DNA of 44,082 nucleotides, taken from NCBI GenBank assembly GCA_902774125.1, contig CACYHD010000008.1, positions 1 to 44,082 of the forward strand, given 5' to 3'. The notes beneath the pieces are model-generated. The model searched no databases. It worked only from the letters and a program-made list of their open reading frames with translations, and had not been told where the DNA came from. The DNA is from an uncultured Lachnospiraceae bacterium (GTDB taxonomy: Bacteria > Bacillota > Clostridia > Lachnospirales > Lachnospiraceae). Below, in pieces: positions 24,586 to 41,434 of the stretch. The number at the start of each line of letters is the position of its first letter. Within the stretch, counting starts at the first letter, position 1. A program made the position numbers and the translations under genes.

Positions 24586-24692
24586 GGTCTCTATGGCAAG
24601 TCCATTCAGAGAGCTTCGCTCTCTTTCATACGCTGGCCGGTTATATAATAAATGAACGAGTCCAGCCTACATAGAGACCTATGGTCTCTATG
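24586..24692. repeat. repeated GGTCTCTATG with mutually exclusive partners
   Basis: CTATGGTCTCTATG occurs at 24582-24595 and again at 24679-24692. CATAGAGACC (24670-24679) can pair with GGTCTCTATG of either copy (24586-24595 or 24683-24692). A separate short hairpin, AGAGAGC/GCTCTCT, lies at 24608-24624. Confidence 0.6.
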
Positions 24693-24785
24693 TAGTGGCT
24701 ATCGCCATGATAATAAAAAGAAAACAGCGCTTACAAGAGTAAACTCTTGATGCGCTGTTTTATTTTTATTATGACTGGACTCGTT
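24655..24785. repeat. cloverleaf-like inverted-repeat cluster
   Basis: Outer arms AACGAGTCCAG (24655-24665) and CTGGACTCGTT (24775-24785) are perfect reverse complements. They enclose three adjacent hairpins: a 13-bp perfect stem (24667-24679/24683-24695), a 4-bp stem TGGC/GCCA (24696-24707) and the terminator stem 24710-24772. Only one or two bases are unpaired at each junction. The right arm overlaps the ychF stop codon. Confidence 0.75.
24710..24772. terminator. bidirectional terminator between lipoprotein gene and ychF
   Basis: ATAATAAAAAGAAAACAGCGC (24710-24730) pairs with 24752-24772 at 20 of 21 positions; the inner stem is CAAGAGT/ACTCTTG. T-rich tails are present on both strands, as suits convergent genes. 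Confidence 0.85.
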
Positions 24786-25881
24786 ATACGTTGAATCGGA
24801 ATGTGATTACATCACCGTCTTTAACGATATATTCCTTACCTTCTAGGTTTACAAGTCCTTTTTCTTTTGCTTTTGATACTGAACCGTACTCGATTAAGTC
24901 TTCATATTTAACAACTTCGGCACAGATGAAGCCGCGCTCAAAGTCTGTGTGAATCTTGCCGGCTGCCTGAGGAGCTTTTGTTCCTTCAGTAATAGTCCAA
25001 GCTCTTGTTTCGTCCTCGCCAGATGTTAGATAACTGATTAGGCCAAGAAGAGAGTAGCTTGCTTTGATTAGCTTGTCTAATCCTGATTCTGTAATTCCAA
25101 GGTCCTCTAGGAACATTTGTTTTTCGTCATCATCCAACTCAGATATTTCCTGTTCAATCTCAGCACTAATAACGAATACTTCTGAACCGTTTTCCTTAGC
25201 GTATTCTCTAACGCTTGCAACCTGCTCGTTAGAAGCACCGTCGTCTGCTAGGTCTTCCTCAGCTACATTAGCAGCATAAATAACTGGCTTAGCTGTTAGA
25301 AGATTGTATTCGCTCATCCAAGCTTCTTCGTCATCGTTAGTTAGTTCCATATTGATTGCAAGATTGCCATCTTCAAGGAATGCCTTAATCTTTTTCTGGA
25401 ATTCCAATTCCTTAGCGGCTGTCTTGTCGTTGTTAGCCTGACGAGTAAGTTTGGCAATACGTCTTTCTAGAATCTCCACGTCAGAGAAGATAAGCTCATA
25501 GTTGATAGTCTCGATATCTCTTAGTGGATCAATGTTACCGTCAACGTGAACGATGTTGTCGTTGACAAAACATCTTACAACGTGAACGATAGCGTCAACT
25601 TCACGGATGTTTGCAAGGAACTGGTTTCCAAGACCTTCACCCTTAGAAGCGCCTTTTACTAGACCTGCAATATCAACGAACTCGATTACAGCAGGAATAG
25701 TCTTCTTAGAATTATATAATGCAGATAGCTTATCAACTCGCTCATCTGGTACTGTTACGACACCTACGTTTGGGTCGATAGTACAGAAAGGATAGTTGGC
25801 TGACTCAGCCCCTGCCTTTGTTAGTGAATTAAATAAAGTACTTTTGCCTACGTTTGGTAGACCTACGATACCTAGTTTCAT
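24784..25881 (-). CDS. ychF: redox-regulated ATPase YchF (OLA1 family)
   Basis: A 365-residue P-loop protein of the Obg-related YchF family. Walker A is GLPNVGKST at residues 7-15, with switch and Walker B in [20 protein letters not shown]. The G4 position reads NVAE instead of NKxD, which explains the ATP preference known for this family. A coiled-coil helical region lies in the middle and a TGS domain at the C-terminus ([20 protein letters not shown]). GGAGG lies 8 bases before the ATG. Role: ribosome-associated ATPase, physiology only partly understood. Confidence 0.97.
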
Positions 25882-40239: not shown

Positions 40240-41115
40240 ATGAGATTCACAAAGAAAATTACAGCTGCAATCTTATCACTAGTTTTAGTTCTTGCAGTTG
40301 GTGTAACATGTATGGCTGCTGAATCATGGGGCTCATACTTCGGATTTGACGATCCTAACAACAATCACGGATATGAGGCTGCAAGTGGTAAGCTTACAGT
40401 TAATAACGACAAGGCGTTCACAGCTACTGTCAACACATTTGGATGGCAGGGTGTATGGGGCGGACAGGTTAAGAAGCCTGTAAACATCGCTAAAGGTTCA
40501 AAGAACATCATTGCATTCGATATTTCATCATCAAAGATTGATAAGTATGTATACATTAAGATTTCAACAGGTGAAGATGTAGCATGCGCATTCTGGCTAT
40601 ACCTACAGAAGGGTAAGACAATTAAGGTTAGCAAGACATTTACAGCAGCTGCTAAGGCTGACACAGTAAACTTTGCTATCGGTGGTGACGCTGGTGATAG
40701 AGGTGGTATCGACGCAGACGGCGAGTACAGATACAAAGTATTCGATCAGGACTTCAAGGGCAAAGGTGATTACGCGACACTTCTAGCTCAGAACTTCAAC
40801 GGTAACGATATTGCTACAGCTGCATCAGAAATCAAGGTTACTAACTTTGTGCTTGCAGGTAAGCCAGCAAAGGCTAAGATCTCAAAGGCTAAAGCTCTTG
40901 GTAAGGGTAAAGTAAAAGTTACTTGGAAGAAGGTTGCAGGTGCAAACGGATACCAGGTACAGGTTGGCACAAAGAAGAAGACAACAACAAAGACAAGCTA
41001 CACAATGAAGAAATTCAAGAAGGGCAAAAAGGTTTCATGTAAGGTAAGAGCTTACGCTGGAAACAAGGCTCTATATGGCTCTTGGTCAAAAGCTAAGAAA
41101 GTAAAGGTTAAATAA
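40240..41115 (+). CDS. secreted beta-sandwich protein with lysine-rich FnIII-like C-terminus
   Basis: A 291-residue protein with a signal peptide ending near MAAES (~28) and a strong AAGGAGG site. Residues ~30-205 are rich in aromatic and Gly residues (WGSYFGFDDPNNNHGY, FGWQGVWGGQV), consistent with a carbohydrate-binding-like beta-sandwich; this is inference, no family can be named with confidence. Residues ~208-291 form a fibronectin-III-like module (VKVTWKKVAGANGYQVQVG) that is extremely lysine-rich and ends GSWSKAKKVKVK. No catalytic motif seen. Codon use resembles highly expressed neighbours. It is followed directly by the hairpin array at 41133. Confidence 0.8.
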   Translation: MRFTKKITAAILSLVLVLAVGVTCMAAESWGSYFGFDDPNNNHGYEAASGKLTVNNDKAFTATVNTFGWQGVWGGQVKKPVNIAKGSKNIIAFDISSSKIDKYVYIKISTGEDVACAFWLYLQKGKTIKVSKTFTAAAKADTVNFAIGGDAGDRGGIDADGEYRYKVFDQDFKGKGDYATLLAQNFNGNDIATAASEIKVTNFVLAGKPAKAKISKAKALGKGKVKVTWKKVAGANGYQVQVGTKKKTTTKTSYTMKKFKKGKKVSCKVRAYAGNKALYGSWSKAKKVKVK

Positions 41116-41146
41116 ACGCGTTAACAATGAGTAAAGCGTTACGTTT

Positions 41147-41211
41147 AACACAATAAAAAATAACGACTCACGAAAGCTCGCTTTCGTTGAGTCGTTATTT
41201 TTTATTGTGTT
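41147..41211. terminator. very long bidirectional terminator-like hairpin A
   Basis: A 24-bp perfect outer stem (41147-41170/41188-41211) continues into CGAAAG/CTTTCG with one bulged T and loop CTCG. The A/T-rich inner tracts make it terminator-like on both strands. Confidence 0.75.
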
Positions 41212-41244
41212 ACATCGCGACATTTGACTGATGTCGCGATGCTT

Positions 41245-41434
41245 ATTGAAATGAAAAGCCATTGCTTTTCATTTCAATAAGAAACGTAACGCTTTTTTTT
41301 AAAACGCAACGCGTTTTAAAAAAAAGTAATATTTTACGCCTTACAACACTACGGATTGAAATGAAAAGCCATTGCTTTTCATTTCAATAAGAAACGCAAC
41401 GCTTTTTTTAAAACGCAACGCGTTTTTAAAAAAA
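41245..41434 (+). repeat. tandem ~80-base direct repeat (hairpins C and D)
   Basis: Copy 1 begins at 41245 and copy 2 at 41355, both starting ATTGAAATGAAAAGCCATTG. They are nearly identical for ~80 bases; differences are a T/C change at 41287/41397 and A/T run lengths. A ~28-base unrelated spacer separates them. Confidence 0.88.

Follow-up and report, generated by a model that had tools for sequence, protein, structure and literature searches.

Just behind a stop codon in the genome of an uncultured Lachnospiraceae bacterium, an outer inverted repeat encloses three hairpins that abut almost without a gap, which raises the question of whether the arrangement is a structured RNA, a DNA site or a by-product of mutation. 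The explanation that we favour, and hold to be probable, is that it belongs to a family of elements at gene 3' ends in which the first hairpin is a terminator and the rest is a cloverleaf of the type known as Clostridiales-1 RNA (Rfam RF01699), formerly mobile and now fixed. The window, i.e. the whole stretch of 44,082 nucleotides analysed here, is contig 8 of an 86-contig assembly of 1.9 Mb (92.7% complete). The cloverleaf (41114-41326) sits between gene P0001 and a glycosyl hydrolase gene (start 41632 or 41692, end 43710; Pfam Glyco_hydro_cc). P0001 has no Pfam match; by eye, an N-terminal signal-like stretch suggests that its product is probably secreted, and relatives of it are present in the genus. 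A tRNA and tmRNA scan of the window returned no matches.

Table 1. Features of the cloverleaf locus and of a second element in the window
Feature	Position	Strand	Basis or remark
Upstream gene P0001	40240..41115	+	Open reading frame; stop codon 41113-41115
Lead-in AACAATGAGT	41123..41132	+	Common to the window copy and the tuf copy of species G016
P1, 5' arm, 14 bp	41133..41146	+	Inverted-repeat listing; covariation control
HP1, long terminator-type hairpin	41147..41211	+	Inverted repeats; RNA and DNA folds
HP2, 11 perfect pairs	41213..41241	+	Inverted repeats
HP3, 18 perfect pairs; starts CTTATTGA, ends TCAATAAG	41242..41281	+	Inverted repeats; pattern search
P1, 3' arm, 14 bp, continuing into a T-run	41282..41295	+	Inverted-repeat listing
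Further 16-bp hairpin right after P1	41292..41326		Terminator-like pattern on both strands
Tandem partial copy of HP3, P1 3' arm and following hairpin	41355..41434	+	Direct repeats
Second family element, behind ychF	24658..24794	-	Covariance model, 46.0 bits, E 3.7e-6; folds

A sequence-only reading of the locus had described a 14-bp outer repeat, and both its coordinates and its perfect pairing were right. Its hairpin sizes of 30, 11 and 18 bp also stand, with the qualification that HP1 reaches 30 pairs only when base 41146 is assigned to P1 and then contains a bulge; counted inward from 41146/41212, HP1 has 25 perfect pairs and, beyond a single bulged T in the 3' arm, six more. Base 41212 is indeed the sole leftover in the junction and can alternatively pair with 41146. 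An extra 9-bp pair had been placed outside the junction; it exists (41114-41122/41308-41316) but competes with the 16-bp hairpin that follows P1. HP1 carries an A-rich 5' arm, a T-rich 3' arm (TTATTTTTTAT at 41195-41205) and the loop G[CTCG]C, while the HP3 loop is C[CATT]G. The tandem partial copy is 97% identical across 59 nt, at a spacing of 110 bp. Neither this copy nor the second element figures in the sequence-only reading.

The fold is far stronger than composition would give. The RNA fold of 41114-41298 reaches -99.6 kcal/mol (z -16.0) and the DNA fold of 41130-41298 reaches -74.3 (z -19.2), neither being equalled by any of 200 shuffles; a longer stretch around the cloverleaf gives z -18 against its shuffles. 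Apart from this locus, a strict hairpin scanner applied to the window and a further 400,000 bases of its genome picked up a single series of abutting hairpins (L049), which has an outer match of 3 bp and is located within a 299-aa open frame. No such series appeared in one dinucleotide shuffle. Weaker true relatives escape this scanner, among them the second element in the window.

A DNA similarity search of 61 genomes revealed one strong relative, behind tuf in G016 (E 1.2e-10); two further matches, both weak, came from other genomes. In the G016 copy the layout is unchanged and the sequences are different, with P1 formed by GAGCGTAAG/CTTACGCTC around three abutting hairpins. By eye, a direct-repeat array adjoins this tuf cloverleaf (L006 1-480; G016:C41, minus strand), with units of about 60-65 bp containing CATCCGCCCA and GGGCAGATGTATTGG. 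At the orthologous place, behind relatives of P0001, the layout is carried by G001 and G014, but a simple terminator alone stands in G003 and G022 (L012 and L014), which counts against our explanation. A nested hairpin in G001:C89 (L007 1490-1610), in which two hairpins are enclosed by the stem AATGAGCCC/GGGCTCATT, follows a gene whose end resembles the P0001 protein.

Two short patterns were considered as marks of a family. The lead-in pattern AACAATGAGTARAGCGTWA occurs without mismatch in G000 (the window's genome) and G016 only, among 24 genomes; it was rejected as a mark, given that up to two mismatches bring in 7 of the 24, several of which fold without any junction. Of the 24 genus genomes, 11 contain the HP3 pattern CTTATTGA..TCAATAAG (reversed-pattern control, 0), with copies behind tuf, ilvC (checked by translation), rpsR and pgk. 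Taken alone the pattern was likewise discarded, as its matches extend to an ordinary terminator (L128) and to a tRNA repeat (L127). The latter locus (L127 1-705; G015:C13) contains, by eye, tandem copies resembling the 5' portion of a tRNA gene, with the palindrome CTTATTGAC..GTCAATAAG breaking up the series and an apparently complete tRNA after it.

A covariance model (R1) of the family was built from 15 aligned members of 11 genomes, with the structure taken from the members' own folds. At E<=1e-3, R1 matched 20 of the 24 genus genomes, including 9 of the 13 from which no training member came. The best E values of the four remaining genomes, 0.0013 to 0.054, count against our explanation. 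At E<=1 there are up to 22 matches per genome (G014). The second element of the window, behind a gene named ychF by NCBIfam, has P1 arms AACGAGTCCAGT/GCTGGACTCGTT. Under a stricter filter, matches at E<=1e-3 were found in 10 of 60 genomes of the taxonomic family, its own included, and in 3 of 87 genomes from other families of the order, with one match each at 38-39 bits. A survey of tuf 3' ends in 30 other genera located the stop codon in 18 and not in 12, with L202 having only 10 nt behind it; a junction was flagged automatically in 8 of the 18, and by eye the right layout is present in L200 and L212 only.

The 99 loci and the window yielded 108 matches, of which 99 remained after nine overlapping or opposite-strand rows were dropped; these are not independent, since several are orthologues and 15 trained the model. 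A four-way junction fold was obtained for 82 of the 99, and for 67 of 84 without training members, under a generous choice of flanks (best of 36 settings). The other 17 formed no junction on folding, which counts against the explanation that we favour. Ten of the 82 were excluded from the arm analyses for arm order or size, and in the 72 left the first arm is the long HP1. Because of this choice of flanks and these exclusions, tests in which 3' flanks were exchanged between matches and perfect P1 pairs counted give the fairer numbers. At least eight perfect pairs were formed by 47 of 99 matches with their own flanks against 4.1 expected from swapped flanks, and at least seven by 56 of 99 against 11.3. 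Without training members, the figures were 44 of 84 against 3.8 for at least eight pairs and 30 of 84 against 0.7 for at least ten. The P1 arms vary from locus to locus and are still complementary (GCGACTTA/TAAGTCGC, GAGCCATGC/GCATGGCTC and CTACGAGCCG/CGGCTCGTAG). Within the ychF group both sides have changed, from GAGCCATGC/GCATGGCTC in L179 to GAGTCATGC/GCATGACTC in L251 or the reverse. Against our explanation, P1 is weak or broken behind ilvC in G007 and G008.

The covariance search that had been proposed for this locus thus found homologues, most of whose arms are compensated, P1 being weak or broken in some. The suggestion that the stacking exceeds chance also held, by the fold scores, the recurrence under the model and the P1 swaps. 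It is true that hairpins are common behind genes and that 17 of the 99 matches lack a junction; with the swap controls, the shuffles and the order-wide genome control against it, however, chance or a simple run of terminators is hardly credible as an explanation.

The placement of the family is equally regular. For 68 of the 82 junction members, an open frame of 90 aa or more on the same strand ends within 250 nt upstream, and in 60 a same-strand stop codon lies -10 to 20 nt from the match start; by the same measure, 42 RF01699 copies of the mobile kind described below gave 23 and 8, respectively. NCBIfam named the upstream genes of 19 representatives as encoding ketol-acid reductoisomerase (ilvC), ribosomal proteins L17 (rplQ), S18 (rpsR), S15 (rpsO), S9 and L7/L12, electron transfer flavoprotein alpha (etfA), YchF, glutamine-fructose-6-phosphate transaminase (glmS), polynucleotide phosphorylase (pnp), EF-Ts (tsf), TypA, phosphoribosyl-pyrophosphate synthetase, phosphoglycerate kinase, GroEL, ArgC, adenylosuccinate synthase (purA), a hypothetical protein family and, from another genus, a metal-sensing repressor. 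The assignment of EF-Tu (tuf) was based on the C-terminal sequence, among other evidence. Most of these genes are presumably highly expressed. Two members lie directly behind same-strand tRNA genes (L176 574-708 and L183 579-715). In G020, by eye, a cloverleaf behind pgk (L133, about 1401-1536) lies some 30 nt before the start codon of a tpiA-like gene. The window's own upstream gene, encoding a secreted-type protein, is not a housekeeping gene, and this counts against our explanation.

By its sequence, HP1 is an intrinsic terminator. At least six T in 8 nt are found in the 3' arm of 70 of the 72 family members and in none of 29 RF01699 copies, and in the window the T-tract at 41195-41205 belongs to a stem behind a gene. 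A consensus terminator scan of the region listed only the hairpin at 41292-41326; HP1, whose T-tract lies inside the stem, is absent from it. As the arms are A-rich and T-rich, HP1 probably terminates in both directions. It shares with bidirectional intrinsic terminators the long stem, the arm composition and the position just behind a stop codon, but differs from them in that it is one arm of a recurring four-way junction and is followed by two more hairpins. The HP1 loops of the 72 members include G[CTTG]C (25), A[TTTA]T (14), G[CTCG]C (11) and G[TTTA]C (10), and the first internal loop is 3'-heavy in 48 and 5'-heavy in 5.

Mismatches indicate in which molecule a stem is maintained. A transcribed hairpin tolerates G.U and not A.C, whereas in DNA both are one event seen on opposite strands. 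Isolated mismatches flanked by at least three Watson-Crick pairs were counted in the 72 members, using unique contexts only. In HP1 there were 24 G.T, 5 A.C and 8 others (p 0.0005), and this large excess of G.T implies that HP1 evolves as a plus-strand RNA hairpin. The corresponding small counts were 3, 3 and 5 for P1, 4, 3 and 5 for HP3 and 4, 0 and 1 for HP2, so that P1 and HP3 show no clear G.U bias. Relaxing the flank rule to two pairs gave 10, 5 and 13 for P1 and 6, 4 and 10 for HP3, neither being significant. For HP1 of 29 RF01699 loci the counts (3, 2 and 4) are too low to judge. The HP3 loops are C[GAA]G in 23 members, C[GGA]G in 4, C[GCA]G in 2 and C[GTA]G in 2, i.e. C[GNA]G in 31 of 72, and the reverse-complement type (TTC) occurs once. 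As these loops are oriented by strand, some single strand, either RNA or DNA, is folded.

One possibility offered by the sequence-only reading was a structured RNA at the 3' end of the mRNA from the gene upstream, and the position together with the terminator type and G.U tolerance of HP1 supports it, but P1 and HP3 show no clear bias, at small counts. Carried to its full extent, the proposal is that of a purely RNA element, in which the cloverleaf of a read-through or processed transcript acts as an mRNA 3' stabiliser, a fail-safe terminator or a small RNA. The closeness to stop codons, the G.U bias of HP1, the 4:0 ratio in HP2, the T-run after P1 in the window and the filing of the related RF01699 by Rfam as an sRNA all point that way, as do the ratios under the looser rule (10:5 in P1 and 6:4 in HP3), which run in the same direction. 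However, the stricter ratios are 3:3 in P1 and 4:3 in HP3, these two stems have few G.U pairs at all, and HP1 should stop most transcripts ahead of HP2; we consider this explanation rather unlikely.

A cruciform or other DNA site had also been suggested, which would suit the absence of a clear G.U bias in P1 and HP3, at small counts. As an explanation of P1, HP2 and HP3 only, it would have them fold in single-stranded DNA (a cruciform, or a lagging or displaced strand) and be bound by a protein. The stems are near-perfect in Watson-Crick pairing, the P1 and HP3 mismatches are symmetric, the DNA fold is strong, and the C[GNA]G loop, prevalent on the plus strand of HP3, is a very stable type in DNA. 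On the other hand, the mismatch counts are low and, to our knowledge, no protein is known to bind a cloverleaf of this type. One candidate partner, the Y1 (HUH) transposase of the RAYT kind, was rejected: PF01797 had no match in G000 (92.7% complete) and exceeded its cut-off in 5 of the 24 genus genomes. We regard a DNA-level site as unlikely. REP/BIME elements are dispersed extragenic palindromes paired with a RAYT (Y1) transposase; the window family resembles them as dispersed extragenic palindromes with hairpin loops, but is distinguished by its four-way junction with a terminator arm.

It is also conceivable, if improbable, that HP1 alone is functional and that the rest is a by-product of palindrome-making mutation, such as template switching at a strong terminator hairpin. 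The long, perfect arms, the scarcity of G.U pairs and the tandem partial copy agree with such an origin, and perfect inverted repeats have been reported (PMC13155455) to be enriched behind bacterial stop codons. A fixed arm order, strand-oriented loops and model matches in 20 of the 24 genus genomes (E<=1e-3) would not be expected from random events.

The closest published relative appears to be RF01699, found in the same taxonomic family as the window organism. Its entry in Weinberg et al. (2010; PMC2864571), in the Clostridiales-1 row, reads RNA 'y', cis-regulatory 'n', switch 'n' and Clostridiales/human gut. In both families P1 encloses three hairpins whose order agrees, the long one coming first; this layout is that of the Rfam consensus structure and is present in 29 of 30 RF01699 loci and in the window copy. 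They also share loop types, HP1 G[CTTG]C (24 of 29 in RF01699) and HP3 C[GNA]G (21 of 29). The window copy has an HP1 loop of the former type and a 3'-side bulge, the bulge in RF01699 being read from individual folds; its HP3 loop is not C[GNA]G, which counts against our explanation. One 24-nt HP1 tip is identical in L165 and a G025 copy (shuffled controls, at most 12), although this largely palindromic stretch could be convergent. Of 29 distinct loci scanned, two relatives in the genus exceed the Rfam gathering threshold of 48 bits (L145, 50.9; L169, 50.5), and four more loci reach 41.7-42.9. At gathering thresholds the whole window has no Rfam match, G000 has no RF01699 match at E<=1e-3 and the window copy is unmatched even at E<=10, the last again counting against our explanation.

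RF01699 itself was found at E<=1e-3 in 82 of 150 genomes of the taxonomic family (63 over threshold) and in none of 14 control genomes, often with at least 17 copies per matching genome; in G025, a window-type tuf copy (L187) coexists with at least 17 RF01699 matches. The two forms differ in several respects. P1 of RF01699 is TGATRCC/GGYATCA, unlike that of the window, and its HP1 lacks the A-rich and T-rich terminator-type arm pair. Copies of the window family are diverged and near stop codons, whereas those of RF01699 are near-identical within a genome and dispersed, with abrupt ends. Copies at L305-L344 (G085, G158, G074, G094, G025 and G121) include some directly behind another terminator.

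Flanking direct repeats separate the two further. With a rule independent of the element end, applied to all 42 RF01699 copies of six genomes, repeats of at least 6 nt flank 30 against 3.8 expected from swapped flanks, and 10 of 25 in further genera against 0.75; they are A/T-rich and mostly 6 bp. An earlier end-finding rule, usable for 34 of the 42, gave repeats of at least 5 nt in 26. The window-genus family shows no clear excess (4 of 82 against 2.1 expected for at least 6 nt; 13 against 8.2 for at least 5 nt). In terms of MITE class features, RF01699 copies of other genera are dispersed, near-identical and bordered by 6-bp A/T-rich repeats resembling target-site duplications, while the window-genus copies lack the repeat excess and are found repeatedly at the same genes across several species. 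RF01699 thus looks, from its sequences, like a mobile, transposon-like element in other genera that moves as a whole unit. The third possibility of the sequence-only reading, a nest of inserted palindromes, is not supported for the window copy because several species carry the layout at the same genes, P1 covaries and target repeats are not in excess. No literature linking RF01699 to mobility or 3' ends was found in a search that mostly did not extend to subscription papers and the 2010 supplements. PMC8040213 reports 250 palindromic candidates, 230 of them predicted terminators, which may include relatives of the window family.

Taken in full, the explanation that we favour is that a member of this family sits just behind the stop codon of, mostly, a housekeeping gene, where HP1 would be a working intrinsic terminator of the upstream gene. 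P1, HP2 and HP3 would make up the remainder of a cloverleaf of Clostridiales-1 type, maintained in the folded form of one strand, be it a transcript that has read through HP1 or DNA that is single-stranded for a short time. Common ancestry of the family and the Clostridiales-1 element is most likely, and in related genera that element would be a small transposable element; the window-genus copies would have stopped moving and now serve as a gene 3' end, the presumed direction being from mobile to fixed. Against this explanation, termination at HP1 would leave the other arms rarely transcribed and their upkeep unexplained. A bolder version holds that RF01699 is a transposable element that makes use of its four-armed fold in moving, and that one lineage made it the standard 3' end of many housekeeping genes, as a terminator plus a DNA or RNA cloverleaf; we regard this as a real possibility, though not the expected outcome. 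If true, a selfish hairpin element now finishes the transcripts of housekeeping genes.

The window element is best described as a fixed, terminator-bearing variant related to the published and unexplained RF01699, any function that it may have beyond termination being putative. The comparison also provides a natural case for distinguishing RNA from DNA structure upkeep, by setting G.U against A.C mismatches arm by arm. Further, RF01699 gains a testable identity, that of a mobile element which duplicates 6 bp of its target. Its second form would be fixed, with a well-defined location after housekeeping genes such as tuf and those for ribosomal proteins, and a well-defined role as terminator.
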